NCBI GenBank assembly: GCA_028279365.1
Contig: JANQNX010000014.1
Coordinates: 1 to 64,000 of the forward strand
DNA from: Gammaproteobacteria bacterium
GTDB lineage: Bacteria > Pseudomonadota > Gammaproteobacteria > Eutrophobiales > Eutrophobiaceae
Length of the DNA stretch: 64,000 bases
Reading direction: 5' to 3'
Shown here one piece after another: positions 28,991 through 38,168 of this stretch. Within the stretch, counting starts at the first letter, position 1. The number at the start of each line of letters is the position of its first letter. Both the position numbers and the translations under genes were made by a program. A model generated the notes under the pieces. It searched no databases. It saw only the letters and a program-made list of their open reading frames with translations, and had not been told where the DNA came from.

Positions 28991-31900
28991 GTTGTGATTT
29001 GAAGGGAATCGTTGTTTGGTTACACTTCCCCTGTATCAAAGGCCGTTTATTAGTCCGTTGTGATTTGAAGGGAATCGTTGTTTGGTTACACTGATAAATC
29101 CATCGTCCGCAACTGTGATGTGTTGTGATTTGAAGGGAATCGTTGTTTGGTTACACTTGAATCTAAACTAGTATAAACAGGAGCTAAGTTGTGATTTGAA
29201 GGGAATCGTTGTTTGGTTACACTGTTCTGAATACTGCTGTGGCTCATTATATAGTTGTGATTTGAAGGGAATCGTTGTTTGGTTACACTCAATGTTATTA
29301 ATCATGATACCGGGAGAATGTTGTGATTTGAAGGGAATCGTTGTTTGGTTACACTACCATTCATCTTTATTGTTCAGTGCTAGGTGTTGTGATTTGAAGG
29401 GAATCGTTGTTTGGTTACACTCTGCGATTGCCTGTCTACTTCCCCGTACAGGTTGTGATTTGAAGGGAATCGTTGTTTGGTTACACTATCGACACGAGTA
29501 CACTGACGAACAGCATGGTTGTGATTTGAAGGGAATCGTTGTTTGGTTACACTCGGAGAACCCAAATTATGACGGAACAACTCGTTGTGATTTGAAGGGA
29601 ATCGTTGTTTGGTTACACTAGGGAGAACACAACATGTTGCAGCTGAACGGTTGTGATTTGAAGGGAATCGTTGTTTGGTTACACTCAGGTCTGGACGCCC
29701 GCCATAACCGAGCCAGTTGTGATTTGAAGGGAATCGTTGTTTGGTTACACTTCCAGGTAGCGCAAGGTCTCGCCGTCGATCGTTGTGATTTGAAGGGAAT
29801 CGTTGTTTGGTTACACTTACCACCATTACCTGAAACACCTAAAGTTAGTTGTGATTTGAAGGGAATCGTTGTTTGGTTACACTCAGTTGGTACTGCATCA
29901 GGTTCTGCTAATAGTTGTGATTTGAAGGGAATCGTTGTTTGGTTACACTTTTACAATGTGGAACAGTTGATGGAGAATAGTTGTGATTTGAAGGGAATCG
30001 TTGTTTGGTTACACTCACCGCCGGCGCAATACCTGATCGAAACACGTTGTGATTTGAAGGGAATCGTTGTTTGGTTACACTCGATGGATTTAAGCCGTGA
30101 CCTTGAGTTTTGTTGTGATTTGAAGGGAATCGTTGTTTGGTTACACTATTCTTTGTGAAAAACATAACGTACCTCCTGTTGTGATTTGAAGGGAATCGTT
30201 GTTTGGTTACACTAATCGCGCCGTAGGTCTCGATACCTTTGTCGTTGTGATTTGAAGGGAATCGTTGTTTGGTTACACTGAGCGAGACTGTAAAGCCTCC
30301 AAAACTCCGGTTGTGATTTGAAGGGAATCGTTGTTTGGTTACACTCCATAGGGGTTGGATAGCGCGTTTCGAGGGGTTGTGATTTGAAGGGAATCGTTGT
30401 TTGGTTACACTCGCATCTTGATATTGGCGATCAACCTGATTGTTGTGATTTGAAGGGAATCGTTGTTTGGTTACACTCAGTTGCTACCAGTATAAAGACG
30501 GACGTGAGTTGTGATTTGAAGGGAATCGTTGTTTGGTTACACTGACCGTTACACGTACTACTGGGGATTGACCGTTGTGATTTGAAGGGAATCGTTGTTT
30601 GGTTACACTAAAGAATTTTAGAAGCTTTAAACAACAAGGTTGTGATTTGAAGGGAATCGTTGTTTGGTTACACTACCGCCCACTTTGTTCATCGATGCCA
30701 GCATGTTGTGATTTGAAGGGAATCGTTGTTTGGTTACACTTTTGAGATTGACGTTAATCTATGATTGACAGTTGTGATTTGAAGGGAATCGTTGTTTGGT
30801 TACACTTTTCGTGCTTGTTGAATTGCGCGAGCAGTTGGTTGTGATTTGAAGGGAATCGTTGTTTGGTTACACTGTACTTGACATGAATACAATTGAAACA
30901 TTAGTTGTGATTTGAAGGGAATCGTTGTTTGGTTACACTTGATAGGAGTAGCATCAGCAAGCGCTGCCTGTTGTGATTTGAAGGGAATCGTTGTTTGGTT
31001 ACACTCACTTGTAAAAATTCGTATTGAACGTCTGTGTTGTGATTTGAAGGGAATCGTTGTTTGGTTACACTAAATTTGGCGCAGTCAGCGAGCGATAGGT
31101 GTTGTGATTTGAAGGGAATCGTTGTTTGGTTACACTAACATCCATTAAAGCGACATTTAAAAGCTAGTTGTGATTTGAAGGGAATCGTTGTTTGGTTACA
31201 CTCATACATACGCTCATCACTTCCATTCGTAGTTGTGATTTGAAGGGAATCGTTGTTTGGTTACACTTGTGTCATAATTGTTTATTCACCAATTCATGTT
31301 GTGATTTGAAGGGAATCGTTGTTTGGTTACACTTTCGCTGACACGTTAGTTTCATTATGGTTGTTGTGATTTGAAGGGAATCGTTGTTTGGTTACACTTA
31401 ATCTCTTTTTTATCAGGATGATTCACTGTTGTGATTTGAAGGGAATCGTTGTTTGGTTACACTCCCATGCAGCGGCGAGCCATGCTAGTAGTAGTTGTGA
31501 TTTGAAGGGAATCGTTGTTTGGTTACACTGATATTGGAATTCTCGCCTTCACCCATAGTGTTGTGATTTGAAGGGAATCGTTGTTTGGTTACACTCTGGG
31601 CTAATGTTGTAATAGGATGATGATTGTTGTGATTTGAAGGGAATCGTTGTTTGGTTACACTCCGTGAATTTTTGGACGCCAAAGAAGATCCGTTGTGATT
31701 TGAAGGGAATCGTTGTTTGGTTACACTACGTTGATGAATCAAGATATCACCGACGCGGTTGTGATTTGAAGGGAATCGTTGTTTGGTTACACTTAAAGGG
31801 CAAGTGTCAGTAGCAGGTTCAGGGTTGTGATTTGAAGGGAATCGTTGTTTGGTTACACTCAAATCAAAATAGTTATAGAACAACATACAGTTGTGATTTG

Positions 31901-33306
31901 AAGGGAATCGTTGTTTGGTTACACTACGACGCCGACATCATTCAGATGGAAGTAGTTGTGATTTGAAGGGAATCGTTGTTTGGTTACACTAACTAATGTA
32001 CCTGCTGATGTTGCTACACGTTGTGATTTGAAGGGAATCGTTGTTTGGTTACACTAATTGTTTTATCAGGATGATGCAGAAGAAGTTGTGATTTGAAGGG
32101 AATCGTTGTTTGGTTACACTACTGGTGCAGGGGATGGTGCTGCTATTTTTGTTGTGATTTGAAGGGAATCGTTGTTTGGTTACACTTAATACAAAATTCA
32201 GCAGCAAAGAAACATAGTTGTGATTTGAAGGGAATCGTTGTTTGGTTACACTAAATACTGATTTTTTGCAGCAAGATAAGTAGTTGTGATTTGAAGGGAA
32301 TCGTTGTTTGGTTACACTAATTCATTTTGTATAAGTTAATACCTTCAGTTGTGATTTGAAGGGAATCGTTGTTTGGTTACACTAACTACACGTAATGCAT
32401 GGGAATGTTTTAGTTGTGATTTGAAGGGAATCGTTGTTTGGTTACACTCGGTATCGGTCTTGGGGCCTATATGATTCTGTTGTGATTTGAAGGGAATCGT
32501 TGTTTGGTTACACTGGACAATGGGGACATTGCAATAGATCAATAGTTGTGATTTGAAGGGAATCGTTGTTTGGTTACACTGTGGAACTATAAATACAACA
32601 ACAGGTGTCAGTTGTGATTTGAAGGGAATCGTTGTTTGGTTACACTACGATTTATCAGAAGGTGCTGTAATGGGCGGTTGTGATTTGAAGGGAATCGTTG
32701 TTTGGTTACACTAATACGTCACTATGATGTTTACCGGTACGTGTTGTGATTTGAAGGGAATCGTTGTTTGGTTACACTGATGCCTTGCATACGCTCACCG
32801 GAGATACCGTTGTGATTTGAAGGGAATCGTTGTTTGGTTACACTATGCAAAAAATTGCCATGAGTCGAAATATGGTTGTGATTTGAAGGGAATCGTTGTT
32901 TGGTTACACTTAAATATTCGCTCGTCAATATATAAGGCTTGTTGTGATTTGAAGGGAATCGTTGTTTGGTTACACTTCGGCTTGCTGCCAGGCTTGTGCA
33001 AATTCTGTTGTGATTTGAAGGGAATCGTTGTTTGGTTACACTGGAGGGCGTTGCGTGGATAATATCGTCATTGTTGTGATTTGAAGGGAATCGTTGTTTG
33101 GTTACACTTTAGGGCCGGCCATCATGGCAATACACTTCGTTGTGATTTGAAGGGAATCGTTGTTTGGTTACACTACCTGCACCTAAAGGTATGTGGGAAT
33201 TAGCGTTGTGATTTGAAGGGAATCGTTGTTTGGTTACACTTTATTCCGATTTCATCAACCTTTAATTTTTGTTGTGATTTGAAGGGAATCGTTGTTTGGT
33301 TACACT
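28991..33306 (+). CRISPR. Type II-C CRISPR array: 66 identical 36-bp repeats, 65 spacers
   Basis: Counted by eye: repeats start at 28991, 29057, 29122 and so on to 33271. The repeat is 36 nt, begins GTTGTGATTTGAAGGG and ends GTTTGGTTACACT; all copies look identical, including both end copies. Spacers are 29-31 nt, mostly 30. The tracrRNA anti-repeat shows that the plus strand is the crRNA strand. Each repeat holds a promoter-like pair, TTGAAG (repeat positions 9-14) and TACACT (31-36), spaced 16 nt, as in Neisseria type II-C arrays where each spacer is transcribed from the preceding repeat. A hairpin with a T-rich tail follows the last repeat. The array lies beyond the 3' end of cas2 and points toward it. 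Confidence 0.99.
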
Positions 33307-33354: not shown

Positions 33355-33684
33355 TTAAAACATTTCCACTTGGGAAGGCGCCGATTCCGGCGCTTTTCTC
33401 ATTTTTCCATGGAAAACTTTCATTTTCGCATACTGAATATCCGTTAACGTCATAATCCTGACCTCACCATCATCGGGCAAAAAGGATTTTATCCTGCGGC
33501 GATGCACTTGCGCCTTTTCTTCATTCTCACAGTATCTCCCATAGACAGAATACTGCATCATTGAAAAACCATTATCCAGCAGTTTATTCCGGAATTCTGT
33601 ATAAGCCCTACGCGCCTCTTTCGAGTCAGTGGGTAAATCAAATAAGGCAATTAACCACACGGCCTGATAGGGCGAAATCGCCAT
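33355..33684 (-). CDS. cas2: CRISPR-associated endonuclease Cas2
   Basis: A 109-aa Cas2, the dimeric core of the spacer-integration complex. Ferredoxin-like fold with AVWLIALFDLPTDSKEARR (the Asp in the first strand is typical) and SMMQYSVYGRYCEN in the middle. Its ATG overlaps the cas1 stop by one base, so the two are coupled. Last gene of the cas9-cas1-cas2 operon; the array begins 48 nt past its stop. Confidence 0.95.
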   Translation of the reverse strand: MAISPYQAVWLIALFDLPTDSKEARRAYTEFRNKLLDNGFSMMQYSVYGRYCENEEKAQVHRRRIKSFLPDDGEVRIMTLTDIQYAKMKVFHGKMRKAPESAPSQVEMF

Positions 33685-34574
33685 TAAAAATCAGGTAGTG
33701 CAAGTAACTTTTCTTCTCCCTGAAATAGCTTGCCCAATGATTGGCTGGTTTTCTGGATTGCGCCTTGCAATGTCAGCATTTCCTTGTCCATAGTGACACG
33801 CCTCTCGACAATGTTCAGCAGGTTTGCACGAATTGTTTTATGCATTTCCTGTTCTGACCCATATTCTTTTACACATTCCCAAACATGTAAGTCCGCTATT
33901 GGACGAAACGGTTCCATGACATCGTCAGCCAGACAATAAGCGTTATAACGATTGTGATGATGAACGCCAATAGAGGGGTGCAGACCTGTTGCACAAAGCG
34001 AACGAGCAACCAGCGCACGAACAATCGCATAACAATAATTCAGATAGCGATTTTGATCATCGGCAAAACGATCCCGCTTAAAACCATCTTGCTCAAAGAG
34101 CTGACTCCAGTAACGCCTCGCCGCCTGTGCTTCAATATTATCCGGGTCGCCGGAACGGATCTTCTTGGCTAACACTTTTAGGCTCATATCCTTGCCGGTC
34201 AGGTCATTGAGCATTCTGGCTTGCATCATTACCTTGCAATAAATCAACTGTTTCCAGATATTTTTCTTCATGGGTGTCGTTGCGTTAATTTGGTGATCGA
34301 AACGTTCGGATTGTAGGGTGTTACTTTGCAATGGAAGAAACATACCATTAGGTTGGTGTTTTTCATCACTGCTAATCACCATGACATTGGCATCGAGTAG
34401 TTTGCCCAGGCAGGTCTGGGTAATCAGTGTTTGCGGATGATCGATAATCAAGGCAGACATATCTTCAATCGACACTGAACCAATGATTTCTTTGTCGCGT
34501 TCAATGATAAGCTGTTGATGCTTGAAATGCAGATAACAGCCCTCCGTGCCGATTTCGATAATCCGTTTGCTCAT
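33684..34574 (-). CDS. cas1: CRISPR-associated integrase Cas1 (type II)
   Basis: A 296-aa Cas1, the metal-dependent integrase that inserts spacers with Cas2. Characteristic parts: ALIIDHPQTLITQTCLGKLLDANV at the N-terminus, CATGLHPSIGVHHHNRYNAYCLADDVMEPFRP with the catalytic His and downstream acidic residues, and a helical C-terminus. It starts immediately after the cas9 stop (TAAATG), so translation is coupled. No csn2 or cas4 follows, which defines subtype II-C. Confidence 0.97.
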   Translation of the reverse strand: MSKRIIEIGTEGCYLHFKHQQLIIERDKEIIGSVSIEDMSALIIDHPQTLITQTCLGKLLDANVMVISSDEKHQPNGMFLPLQSNTLQSERFDHQINATTPMKKNIWKQLIYCKVMMQARMLNDLTGKDMSLKVLAKKIRSGDPDNIEAQAARRYWSQLFEQDGFKRDRFADDQNRYLNYCYAIVRALVARSLCATGLHPSIGVHHHNRYNAYCLADDVMEPFRPIADLHVWECVKEYGSEQEMHKTIRANLLNIVERRVTMDKEMLTLQGAIQKTSQSLGKLFQGEEKLLALPDF

Positions 34575-37500
34575 TTAAATAGCTCGTTCTTTTTTTATTT
34601 TTCCTAAACTGTTTATTTCTAGTAATCTAAGGTTTGTTTCTTTCAGTGAGTTCGCCGAAAAATTAATTTGTTTTTTCCAGTCTTTTATATTTGCATCTGT
34701 ATGTTCGCGAAAAATAATATTTTCATTCATATCCATTTTCTGAACGCGACAGACTTTTTCTTCGCCTTTATGAATGAGTTTGACCATGTCGTTAGGATGC
34801 AAGGCAGTCAAGAAGCGTTCATCGTTTTCAAATGCTGTTCTGATAACCGGTTCTTTACCATTACTTGCATTGCGTAATGTCGCTTCCAGCGTGCTGACGA
34901 CATACCCCTTCCACTTTTTATTGTCTTTTTTATCCAAGTACTCGACTAATTCCATATGATGGTTGCCCATTGTCCAGACATTCCTTCTTTTATCGTCAGA
35001 GTTGGGAAATATTTTTCCTATTGAGGTCACACTGCGGTTATAAACCAGTCGTACTTTTTTAATTTTTCTGAACTCTCCTTTTTTAGTTTTCATTTGAAAA
35101 GGATTGTCATCGTTTTTAAAAGCATCATTATAATTTTTTGAGTTTTTCAAATGCTCTTTAGCCAGTTCCCTAATTTTAGGGTCACGTATATGTTCCAGAT
35201 CGGATTCTTTCATATCAGATAATGACTTCCGGATAGCCACAACCGAAATACCTTTTTTATCTATCTCAGGTGTCAGGCTGTAAAGAAACTCTTTATGCAA
35301 GGCACCTTTAATCTTCCGCTGTGATTTGTGTGACACAATTATATTTTGAATGGTGTTTTCTGCCTGTTGTCGGATATCGGAAAAAGGTGGAGGATAGTCT
35401 TTGATTCTTAATTCGCCATGGCTATTGCTGCTGGTATAGGTATTAATCTTTTGTACTGCACTGAGGCTGGTATAGGCTACAACTAGAGCATCAATGGCAT
35501 GGTGGCGATGATCCAGCCGTGTTTTTTCACCGGAGACATCGAGAATATTATTTAACCCCCAGGCACGGCGTAACAGCGCTGTGGTACCCCCTTTGACGGG
35601 TTCGACTTTTATTCCTAATTGTTTTAAATAGTCCGCTGTCTTTCTGGCGATGTAACGGGTTTCGTTGAGTTGCTGGCTGACAAACTCATCCATATCTTTT
35701 ATGGCATTGGCGGAAAAGCGTTTGAACTTGGGATACGGCAGATTTTTGGCGCGTTGTAACATATCCGCATACTCAGACTCATTACCATGAAAGGCTTCCC
35801 ATGGGGTCTGATTACCTTTTTGTTTATTGTGATCCCTGTGACACAAGGTTTTGTTCATAAAACTATCATCAAGGCAACGTGAATACGGAATAATATGTTC
35901 TATCTCATAAACGGGTTGGGTAAATAACTCATGAACGCTGATTGCGTTGCCACTGAATGGACAGACATGTTCGCACTCTTGCCAGAGACGATATTTTAAT
36001 TTATCAGTTCTGGTCGGGTTAGGAATGCCGACTTCCTCTTTTAAAAACTGTTCCGCCTCCTGATTAGCTTCTTCATTCTTGCGTTGTTGTCTCTGATAGT
36101 CGTCGCGTTGTTTGGCATTCAGTTTTAGGTCGCGGGCCATTTCGATTCGAATCACATCCGGTTTACCGTATTGGCGAATAATCGCATTCACTACTTTACG
36201 TACCTGGAACAAGGCACGCTCCACCATTGGATTTCGCAAACCATCTGTGTCGATCAAGCTGCTGGTATGTTCGCCTCTTTTCTTGGCAGCAACACCAGGA
36301 AAAGGCAGTTGCTCCAGTGACTTCTCTTCCTGTGGCTTGGTATGTTCATAACCCGCCTTTTCACAGGCTTCGGCATAGTTATAACCACGTTCCAGACCGG
36401 TATCACCAAACTCTAAAAATTTAACGATATGACGCATCGCCTTTTGTGAAAGATGCATATAGCCTTTAGGCAATTCGCCACTTTTCTTGACTAACTTATC
36501 GATAGTTTCCTGCTCGAACTTCCATTTGCGGATAAGACGATTGCGCAGCGCACGGTCTTCATTAATATAAACGAGATCATTAATCAGCTGTTCTTTATCT
36601 CTATCAGATAAATCTTTCCATTGTTTGGCGCCTAATGCGGGTTTGATTAATGAAACGGTCTGGTTGCCTAACATGCCCGACTTTCTGACCTTCTCAAGGT
36701 TAATTTTGTCAGACTCAAATATGCCAATCAGGTCTCGAACCTTTTCCCAACTAAGCTGTTTCTTGTCCTTTAGAGCTTCATAAAGCGTTCTTCTTTCCTT
36801 ATCAGTCAGAAAACGCTCTGTGCCATCACCCAATAATAATTTCAGATTATTAATATTGCTCCAAAGACGAAATTCCTGTGCAATCAACGCCGCCTTGGCG
36901 GCACGTTTGCGATCCTTTTCAAAATCACAATACCCCACGAGATGTTTTTGTATCTTTAACGGACGTTGAAAAAAGATAGCGTCATAGATAGCTTTCCTAG
37001 TTGCAACATTAAGCAGATCGGGATGATGTTGTTTCTGCGCAGACCAGATGTGTTCAAACTCTTCTTCAAACATCTCCCTTGCGGTGTAACGGCCTCGAAT
37101 GCGTTGCTCATGCGGGTCGAGACTATTCAGGTATGCACCAAGCGTTTTAAAATTACCCTTTTCTATCTCTTGTATGATCTCAGTAATACCCTGGGCAACC
37201 TTGCCGTCTTTTTCATCACCGGTTTTACGATTGGAGAGATAACCTCGGCGTTGGCCCAAATGATAAAGTGCGCGGCCAACCTGGAAGGGTTCCAGCTTTT
37301 CGCTCAATGCAGCCGCGCGCAAGTCATAAGGGTTGGTTGTCTGTAAAAGTTTTTCTAACGTTGGTTCGTCAGCAGGGAGAAGATTAAATTCGATTAATAA
37401 ATATTTTAGTTTTTCTTTACGTCTTGTCCTGCGATAGGTTTGGCGGCGAATACTGCGGGCGATGCGTCGGTCCTGGTTTAGCGATTTCTCGCCACGGCTC

Positions 37501-37625
37501 CGATCCATCCCTTCCGGAAAGATACGTACGCCTGCATCAATGATATTGGTCGGTTCGGTCAAACACCAACCGATAGAAGATGTACCTAGATCCAATCCAA
37601 GAATCTGTATGTTCTCATTAACCAT
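34575..37625 (-). CDS. cas9: Cas9 endonuclease, type II-C
   Basis: RNA-guided DNA nuclease of 1016 aa, in the size range of compact II-C enzymes. RuvC-I: LGLDLGTSSIGW with Asp12. Arg-rich bridge helix: QDRRIARSIRRQTYRRTRRKE. RuvC-II: IRIEMARDLKLN near residue 495. HNH: YEIEHIIPYSRCLDDSFMNK with His577, followed by NKQKGNQTPWEAF. RuvC-III: RLDHRHHAIDALVV near residue 710. The PAM-interacting C-terminal part is present, and all catalytic residues look intact. ATG at 37625 with GGGAA upstream. First gene of cas9-cas1-cas2; its predicted promoter lies about 190 nt upstream. The PAM cannot be read from the sequence. Confidence 0.98.
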   Translation of the reverse strand: MVNENIQILGLDLGTSSIGWCLTEPTNIIDAGVRIFPEGMDRSRGEKSLNQDRRIARSIRRQTYRRTRRKEKLKYLLIEFNLLPADEPTLEKLLQTTNPYDLRAAALSEKLEPFQVGRALYHLGQRRGYLSNRKTGDEKDGKVAQGITEIIQEIEKGNFKTLGAYLNSLDPHEQRIRGRYTAREMFEEEFEHIWSAQKQHHPDLLNVATRKAIYDAIFFQRPLKIQKHLVGYCDFEKDRKRAAKAALIAQEFRLWSNINNLKLLLGDGTERFLTDKERRTLYEALKDKKQLSWEKVRDLIGIFESDKINLEKVRKSGMLGNQTVSLIKPALGAKQWKDLSDRDKEQLINDLVYINEDRALRNRLIRKWKFEQETIDKLVKKSGELPKGYMHLSQKAMRHIVKFLEFGDTGLERGYNYAEACEKAGYEHTKPQEEKSLEQLPFPGVAAKKRGEHTSSLIDTDGLRNPMVERALFQVRKVVNAIIRQYGKPDVIRIEMARDLKLNAKQRDDYQRQQRKNEEANQEAEQFLKEEVGIPNPTRTDKLKYRLWQECEHVCPFSGNAISVHELFTQPVYEIEHIIPYSRCLDDSFMNKTLCHRDHNKQKGNQTPWEAFHGNESEYADMLQRAKNLPYPKFKRFSANAIKDMDEFVSQQLNETRYIARKTADYLKQLGIKVEPVKGGTTALLRRAWGLNNILDVSGEKTRLDHRHHAIDALVVAYTSLSAVQKINTYTSSNSHGELRIKDYPPPFSDIRQQAENTIQNIIVSHKSQRKIKGALHKEFLYSLTPEIDKKGISVVAIRKSLSDMKESDLEHIRDPKIRELAKEHLKNSKNYNDAFKNDDNPFQMKTKKGEFRKIKKVRLVYNRSVTSIGKIFPNSDDKRRNVWTMGNHHMELVEYLDKKDNKKWKGYVVSTLEATLRNASNGKEPVIRTAFENDERFLTALHPNDMVKLIHKGEEKVCRVQKMDMNENIIFREHTDANIKDWKKQINFSANSLKETNLRLLEINSLGKIKKERAI

Positions 37626-37811: not shown

Positions 37812-37840
37812 ATTATATTTTGGATATTAAGAATATTGAA
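37812..37840 (-). promoter_or_regulatory. Predicted cas9 promoter
   Basis: On the minus strand a perfect TATAAT -10 box (37817-37812) is preceded at 17 nt by a weak -35, TTCAAT (37840-37835). Transcription would start near 37805 and leave an untranslated leader of about 180 nt before cas9. The -35 region overlaps that of the divergent orphan RNA gene. Motif-based prediction only. Confidence 0.5.
37817..37828 (+). other. Candidate target site of the orphan guide in the cas9 promoter
   Basis: ATTTTGGATATT here equals the last 12 nt before the orphan repeat (ATTTTGGATGTT, 37902-37913) except for one base. Farther upstream the similarity stops. The site lies between the predicted -10 and -35 boxes of the cas9 promoter. 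The bases 3' of it, where a Cas9 PAM would be, read AAGAATAT. Confidence 0.45.
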
Positions 37841-37863
37841 ATAATGCTCTCAGATGTTATATT
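37836..37863 (+). promoter_or_regulatory. Predicted promoter of the orphan crRNA-like RNA
   Basis: TTGAAA (37836-37841), 16-nt spacer, TATATT (37858-37863): five of six matches in each box. Start predicted near 37870. Confidence 0.55.
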
Positions 37864-37869
37864 TGTCAA

Positions 37870-37985
37870 TAAGCATCAAAAAGAACTCATTTCCGTGAGC
37901 CATTTTGGATGTTGTTGTGATTTGAAAGGAATCGTTGTTTGGTTACACGCAAAAGGCAGATATTGATCGTATCTGCCTTTTTCTT
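37870..37985 (+). ncRNA. Orphan single-repeat crRNA-like RNA
   Basis: A predicted transcript of about 115 nt: some 43 nt of guide-like leader (37871-37913), one CRISPR repeat copy (37914-37948) and a strong terminator hairpin (37951-37981). The repeat copy differs from the array consensus at repeat position 14 (G to A) and has lost the last T of the internal TACACT box. The change at 14 makes a Watson-Crick pair with the tracrRNA where array repeats form a G-U pair. Its last 12 guide nt match the cas9 promoter, 11 of 12. It may load onto Cas9 with the tracrRNA as a repressive guide, as known in principle for Streptococcus tracr-L and Francisella scaRNA. No expression evidence. Confidence 0.6.
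37951..37985 (+). terminator. Terminator of the orphan crRNA-like RNA
   Basis: A 12-bp stem, AAAAGGCAGATA (37951-37962) with TATCTGCCTTTT (37970-37981), loop TTGATCG, followed by a T-rich tail. It starts two bases after the repeat copy ends. Confidence 0.88.
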
Positions 37986-38029
37986 TTTGAATTCAGGATT
38001 CTAAAACTATCTTTTTTTTCTTGGCGGTC

Positions 38030-38035
38030 TATACT
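38030..38035 (+). promoter_or_regulatory. -10 box of the tracrRNA gene
   Basis: TATACT, 8 nt before the first base of the anti-repeat at 38043, which places the start at the anti-repeat itself. No convincing -35 box is seen; TTGGCG at 38021 is too close. Confidence 0.5.
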
Positions 38036-38041
38036 CTAAAT

Positions 38042-38168
38042 CTGTAACCAAACAACGGTTCCTTTCTTACCACAATAAAACGGACACCGTTGCAGGCTCT
38101 GAAGCATGCTTCAACCTTATCGCCCGAGGGCACATAGAAGAACCCCAGCTTGATCACTGGGGTTTTTT
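38042..38168 (+). ncRNA. tracrRNA of the type II-C system
   Basis: The anti-repeat (38043-38075) is complementary to the array repeat: 15 nt of perfect pairing (TGTAACCAAACAACG), then a region with G-U pairs and three mismatches that would form a bulge, then CACAA pairing with the 5' end of the repeat. After it come ATAA, a short hairpin AACGG-ACA-CCGTT (38079-38091), GAAG-CATG-CTTC (38101-38112), a GCCC/GGGC element near 38122-38131 and the terminator. This order matches Neisseria-type tracrRNAs (anti-repeat, AATAA, nexus-like hairpins, terminator). It lies upstream of cas9 on the opposite strand and fixes the crRNA strand as plus. Confidence 0.9.
38139..38167. terminator. Terminator shared by tracrRNA and the convergent gene
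   Basis: AACCCCAG (38141-38148) pairs with CTGGGGTT (38157-38164), then a run of T. The last codons and stop of the minus-strand gene at 38154 lie inside this hairpin, so both transcripts end in it. Confidence 0.88.

Follow-up and report, generated by a model that had tools for sequence, protein, structure and literature searches.

What is a single CRISPR (clustered regularly interspaced short palindromic repeats) repeat doing outside its array, between cas9 and the gene for the trans-activating CRISPR RNA (tracrRNA)? The question is raised by a 64,000-nt stretch of a gammaproteobacterial contig (JANQNX010000014.1; hereafter the window, with coordinates counted from its first letter), which contains a compact type II-C CRISPR-Cas locus. 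The cas9-tracrRNA intergenic DNA of this locus, about 0.5 kb long, holds an orphan repeat (37914-37949, plus strand) in the array sense and identical to the array repeat at 34 of 36 positions. Such identity is far beyond chance: in a scan with the full repeat, the anti-repeat of the tracrRNA being set aside, the next-best copy upstream of cas9 matches at 20/36. Bacteria that are only distantly related have loci of this layout too. An earlier note on this DNA had argued, from the pairing of the orphan with the tracrRNA, that the orphan is maintained by selection rather than left over from decay. That conclusion is well supported by the present analysis, but the pairing argument fails: comparison of related loci indicates that the orphan is very probably functional, for a reason other than a gain in pairing. 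We consider it highly probable that the orphan is a stand-alone CRISPR RNA (crRNA) gene whose product, together with the tracrRNA, would take Cas9 to its own promoter, guided by a match that is too short to allow cleavage.

The guide of a type II crRNA precedes the repeat on its 5' side, and the final 10-12 bases of the guide form the seed. The 12 nt directly 5' of the orphan (ATTTTGGATGTT, 37902-37913, plus strand) are identical at 11 of 12 positions to ATTTTGGATATT (37817-37828, plus strand), which lies in the cas9 promoter region and would be the target (protospacer) of the guide. The single mismatch (guide G, non-target A) corresponds to an rG:dT wobble, and the match becomes a run of 12 if one G:T wobble is allowed. 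None of the 65 spacers of the window array reaches 11/12 against the same region and four reach 10/12. The pattern that combines the seed with a candidate protospacer-adjacent motif (PAM), TTTTGGATRTTNRGA, searched as an exact pattern, matches a single site of the 3.14 Mb genome, and this site is the one at the cas9 promoter. Taken alone, this resemblance between two short sequences is suggestive only.

A comparative set was built from 80 Cas9 loci on named genome contigs and from others around the window, L105, L100, L073 (G277) and L121. Removing 8 duplicates from 199 loci (L138 is L073) left 191 distinct ones; for 156 of them both usable upstream DNA and a repeat, whether their own or a borrowed one, were available (35 were left out for lacking either), and 126 of these had an array antiparallel to cas9 and a detectable anti-repeat, a filter failed by the other 30. 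An orphan was defined as an array-sense copy of the first 18 repeat bases, at least 13/18 identical, between cas9 and the anti-repeat; this cut was fixed after the data had been seen. Chosen by repeat similarity alone, 15 of the 126 loci carry an orphan. They comprise the window, L071, L073, L137 and L266 from the window's class (L266 has a distant Cas9, at 25% identity, whose subtype was not checked), the alphaproteobacterial L098, L105 and L121, the planctomycete L100, and L217, L220, L238, L349, L352 and L357.

The seed matches the cas9 upstream DNA of its own locus at 10/12 or better in 15/15 loci, with an exact run of 10-12 (13 in L105) in ten of the 15. Spacers from the same 15 arrays, put to the same test, reach at least 10/12 in 14/276 cases and never an exact run of 10 or more (Fisher 1.6e-17 and 2.9e-15, respectively). 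When seeds are swapped among the 15 loci, 6 of the 210 off-diagonal pairs reach 10/12 and none 11, and the observed sum was reached in none of 300,000 permutations (p = 3.3e-6, the floor); this permutation replaced an earlier one on 13 loci in whose choice the seed had been used. At other positions of the same upstream regions, 10/12 occurs at 13.7% and a run of 10 at 1.3%. With the loosest cut (11/18) there are 27 orphan candidates, 19 with a seed of at least 10/12 and 8 below; a cut of 12/18 gives 16/17 (L354 fails), and 13/18 gives the 15/15.

For a table of 18 targets, the 15 loci were joined by L334 and, by hand, by L355 and L115 (both 11/18); L347, whose seed scores 10 and whose candidate lies 286 nt away from the anti-repeat, was excluded by hand. 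Between positions -10 and -1, identity across these targets is 18/18 at seven positions, 15/18 at -5 and at -3, and 17/18 at -1; by -12 it is down at the background level, and at +1, +2 and +4 no target is identical (0/18). In 10/15 loci the longest shared run, when left unanchored, comes to its end at 0 or +1, the repeat boundary. Seed-target similarity stops where the spacer stops. Within the seed, G/A (wobble) accounts for 4 of 23 mismatches and A/T is the most frequent, so wobble is no general rule. Covariation is clearest in L073, L334, L071 and L137, whose Cas9s are 59-77% identical: variation affects six of ten seed columns, and every change is mirrored in the target, while the flanking DNA has drifted and the PAM side (GAAAA or TAAAA) is kept. 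In L071, L073 and L334 the target abuts a predicted TTGAAA-N16/17-TATAAT cas9 promoter, the -35 box overlapping the PAM.

The flank of the 18 targets, which played no part in their selection, is NRRAAT-like. A purine stands at position 2 in 17/18 targets and at position 3 in 18/18, A at position 5 in 14/18 and T at position 6 in 13/18; positions 2-4 are all purine in 15/18, against a background of 0.136 (binomial 5e-11). The window flank, AAGAAT (37829-37834, plus strand), fits this motif. The shared flank looks like a PAM, and self-target flanks offer a possible route to reading PAM preference. The NRRAAT-like flank is common to the 18 targets though most of their Cas9s are far diverged.

Several observations weigh against this account. 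(i), in the AT-rich region of the window 3.5% of other positions match the seed equally well (p ~0.035), and the longest unanchored shared run of the window falls elsewhere. (ii), the flank motif is without support from array protospacers, none having been found in the scans made: the window array gave no match in phages or plasmids, the L220 and L357 arrays none in phages, and five 22-nt spacer ends (from the 65 spacers) none in viral contigs. (iii), the promoters are consensus predictions; in L137 the top predicted cas9 promoter lies away from the target, and in several other loci promoter and target do not overlap either. (iv), many loci lack an orphan, which must therefore be dispensable: where the gap between cas9 and anti-repeat is at least 200 nt, orphan and seed are present in 18/35 loci and such an orphan is absent from 17/35, and it is absent from 91/91 loci with a shorter gap, a figure that partly reflects lack of room. 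(v), the predicted orphan RNA has a 5' leader (37868-37913) that folds onto the seed, AGCAUC with GAUGUU and AAAA with UUUU, and the guide might stay locked in this fold until the RNA is processed.

Absence can be found among relatives. L276 and L074, of the same family as L073, L334, L071 and L137, have no orphan and cas9 adjoins the tracrRNA; the same holds for L213, whose Cas9 is 87% identical to that of L105, a locus with the orphan unit. The L105/L213 contrast amounts to a recent gain or loss of the whole unit.

Is the orphan read as an RNA of its own? In a variant of the stand-alone crRNA gene, not exclusive of it, read-through would join seed, orphan and tracrRNA into a natural single-guide RNA, as in the tracr-L RNA of Streptococcus pyogenes. 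The read-through RNA of the window folds with orphan and anti-repeat paired (-107.5 kcal/mol), and the two are separated by 7-8 nt in L121, L137 and L355 and by 31 nt in L105 and L115 (L352 and L266 also fall within 7-31 nt). In the window, however, an intrinsic-terminator-like hairpin of 13 pairs with a T-rich tail (37951-37988, plus strand), which would end the orphan RNA, intervenes together with TATACT (38030-38035, plus strand), a probable -10 box of a separate tracrRNA promoter that was picked out by eye and is absent from the consensus-scan list. Terminator-like hairpins follow the orphan in L073 and L349 too (by eye). We regard this variant as rather unlikely overall: in the window the predicted hairpin and -10 box favour two RNAs, whereas the short spacing in L121, L137 and L355 makes a joined single-guide RNA likely there. 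L352 and L115 show an apparent second partial repeat between orphan and anti-repeat (by eye), possibly what is left of a mini-array with two repeats.

A quite different explanation is that the orphan repeat, whether stray or ancestral, has no function and that its seed match arose by chance in AT-rich DNA. The weak probability of the window match on its own and the frequent lack of an orphan (e.g. L213, L276, L074) speak for such decay, but it is hard to reconcile with 15/15 loci against 14/276 array spacers, with the covariation of seed and target, with a match that ends at the repeat boundary and with a shared flank; we consider it very unlikely.

The earlier note had opposed decay on other grounds, part of which we could confirm. 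The 66 array repeats are all identical, and just two substitutions, G14A and T36G, set the orphan apart from them. The anti-repeat, a reverse-strand repeat copy with 8 mismatches (38041-38076), has T (U in RNA) facing position 14, which gives the orphan an A-U pair in place of the G-U of the array repeats; and the change at position 36 turns, as sequence, the repeat-internal -10-like box TACACT into TACACG. What does not hold is the step from stronger pairing to selection. RNAduplex gives -44.7 kcal/mol for the array repeat with the anti-repeat and -45.0 kcal/mol for the orphan, a gain of merely 0.3 on about -45 that is due entirely to G14A, T36G contributing none; 12 of the 108 possible single substitutions strengthen the duplex, 8 of them by more than G14A does. 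Among 13 orphan-bearing loci identified at an earlier stage of the comparison, the orphan pairs better than the array repeat with its own anti-repeat in 2 over the whole repeat and in 4 over the first 26 nt; in the others it pairs worse, often much worse. With better pairing in so few loci, pairing strength is not what is kept, and selection for better orphan:anti-repeat pairing was rejected on the size of the gain and on the worse pairing in 11/13 loci. Covariation of orphan and anti-repeat across homologous loci, for which the earlier note had proposed a test, shows no general pattern either; the orphan is variable in its 3' half and the anti-repeat does not change along with it, which comes close to the free variation that the note had named as counting against its view.

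Conservation is seen in the 5' part of the orphan repeat and most of all in the seed match to the cas9 promoter region. A14 may be the ancestral state, the array repeat being the one that changed, but it cannot be polarised because genome and viral scans with the window Cas9 found no close relative of the window locus (the nearest Cas9 is ~41% identical). The orphans of L349 and L357 are identical to the array repeat over their first 18 bases and look recently array-derived, whereas others are degraded beyond their first 12-18 bases.

The orphan RNA could also be a regulator of other genes, of the type of the small CRISPR/Cas-associated RNAs (scaRNAs), sending Cas9 with the tracrRNA to mRNAs or to promoters outside the cas genes, in which case its match to cas9 would be of secondary importance. 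The layout fits that of predicted type II scaRNAs (PMC6199352), and a meningococcal scaRNA acts on efeO mRNA (PMC13431127). Yet the sole exact TTTTGGATRTTNRGA match in the window genome is the cas9 promoter, and the seed matches the locus's own cas9 upstream DNA in all 15 loci, which leaves little room for this explanation. Least credible of all is a repeated operator, seed and target being two sites for a protein repressor that controls both divergent promoters: both copies do lie beside divergent promoters and are inverted relative to each other in 11/18 loci, but it is hard to see why protein-binding sites should break off precisely where a CRISPR repeat begins, why just one of the two copies should have an NRRAAT flank, or why their sequence should differ between close relatives.

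We therefore return to the stand-alone crRNA gene and to its place in the locus. As in other type II-C systems, the cas genes are cas9, cas1 and cas2, the array lies beside cas2 and a tracrRNA is nearby. The array (28991-33306, plus strand) has 66 identical 36-nt repeats (GTTGTGATTTGAAGGGAATCGTTGTTTGGTTACACT) and 65 spacers, with no gene between it and cas2 (csn2 and cas4 were not searched separately across the whole window). On the minus strand follow cas2 (33355-33684; TIGR01573, 75.9 bits, cut-off 24.5), cas1 (33684-34574; TIGR03639, cas1_NMENI, 277.2 bits, cut-off 120) and cas9 (34575-37625, 1016 aa; TIGR01865, 716.9 bits, cut-off 100). Two cas9 promoters are predicted by consensus match on the minus strand, P1 (TTGACA-17-CATTAT, 37841-37869) and the alternative P2 (TCAATA-16-TATAAT, 37812-37839); the target lies a short way downstream of the P1 -10 box and sits between the -35 and -10 boxes of P2. 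Divergent from them, a predicted orphan-RNA promoter (TTGAAA-16-TATATT with a TG extension, 10/12 consensus matches; 37836-37863, plus strand) reads into the orphan. The tracrRNA (38043-38168, plus strand) consists of the anti-repeat (38043-38075), a tail and a terminator (38137-38168).

These elements suggest how the unit may work. The orphan repeat would be the 3' part of a small crRNA gene between cas9 and the tracrRNA gene, transcribed from its own promoter; the guide, with its final 12 nt matching the cas9 promoter region, would be followed by the repeat and then by a terminator. Given its near-identity to the array repeat, the orphan RNA would pair with the tracrRNA like any crRNA and load Cas9, which would then bind 37817-37828 in the cas9 promoter region beside AAGAAT. 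With the match limited to about 12 guide bases, binding by Cas9 is expected to leave the DNA uncut, as with S. pyogenes tracr-L. Bound Cas9 would repress transcription of cas9-cas1-cas2, a negative feedback on the Cas9 level which, by analogy, might relax when array crRNAs or inhibitors occupy Cas9. For the lack of cutting and for the repression we infer from tracr-L and from the Cas-regulating RNAs (CreRs) discussed below.

More broadly, we think it probable that part of the type II-C loci of Gammaproteobacteria, Alphaproteobacteria and Planctomycetes has, beside the tracrRNA, a crRNA gene dedicated to autorepression, whose 10-13 nt guide evolves in concert with a PAM-flanked site in the cas9 promoter region, a gene repeatedly gained and lost and ranging in form from separate crRNA to single-guide RNA. 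If so, RNA-guided cas autorepression would extend to subtype II-C, autorepression by guide RNAs would be general to Cas9 systems and not confined to II-A, and it would be explained how some horizontally moving II-C systems keep their Cas9 level in check. Such loci would also provide natural designs of truncated, non-cutting II-C guides and, with the target flank as candidate, PAM predictions for uncharacterised Cas9s without phage data. It would also follow that lone repeats beside a tracrRNA are not to be dismissed as array debris.

RNA-guided autorepression of cas genes has precedents in II-A (tracr-L) and, in the form of CreR, in I-B, I-E and V-A. Our literature search, whose coverage left subscription papers largely outside, found no report of II-C Cas9 autorepression by an orphan-repeat guide. 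Among the known systems that come close are the scaRNAs. The scaRNA of Francisella novicida (II-B) and predicted type II scaRNAs are described as acting on other genes (PMC6199352, PMC13431127), and scaRNAs with other locations and targets have been predicted in type II-C loci (PMC6199352); parts of the present finding may have been catalogued earlier as scaRNA. Like a scaRNA, the orphan RNA would be a small RNA outside the array with repeat homology, pairing with the tracrRNA and with a promoter and terminator recognised by consensus only; unlike it, its best target is the cas9 promoter region, and its gene lies between cas9 and the tracrRNA.

CreRs bear a repeat and lie outside the array, and the orphan guide does likewise. 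The original CreR study is reportedly that of Liu 2023. The CreRs of I-B, I-E and V-A are guide RNAs partly complementary to a cas promoter that effect autorepression (PMC13131331). The orphan guide shares this partial complementarity to its own cas promoter region beside a candidate PAM (11/12 in the window), but its effector would be a type II-C Cas9 that needs a tracrRNA, and autorepression is here presumed.

Another close counterpart is tracr-L, first described, it is said, by Workman 2021. In the S. pyogenes II-A system, a match of ~11 nt to the cas promoter beside a PAM leads to binding without cleavage and to cas autorepression (PMC8616872, PMC11417352), and a 2021 review describes tracr-L as not found in other subtypes (PMC8616872). 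The likeness is that of a short guide matching the cas promoter region beside a candidate PAM, with non-cutting autorepression as the presumed outcome. There are differences as well. The II-C locus has a cas9-cas1-cas2 layout, a cas1_NMENI-type Cas1 and an array directly after cas2, and tracr-L is one RNA, the guide being fused to the tracrRNA, whereas the window probably makes a separate crRNA from a near-perfect extra CRISPR repeat, in a system whose guide and repeat sequences differ by lineage.
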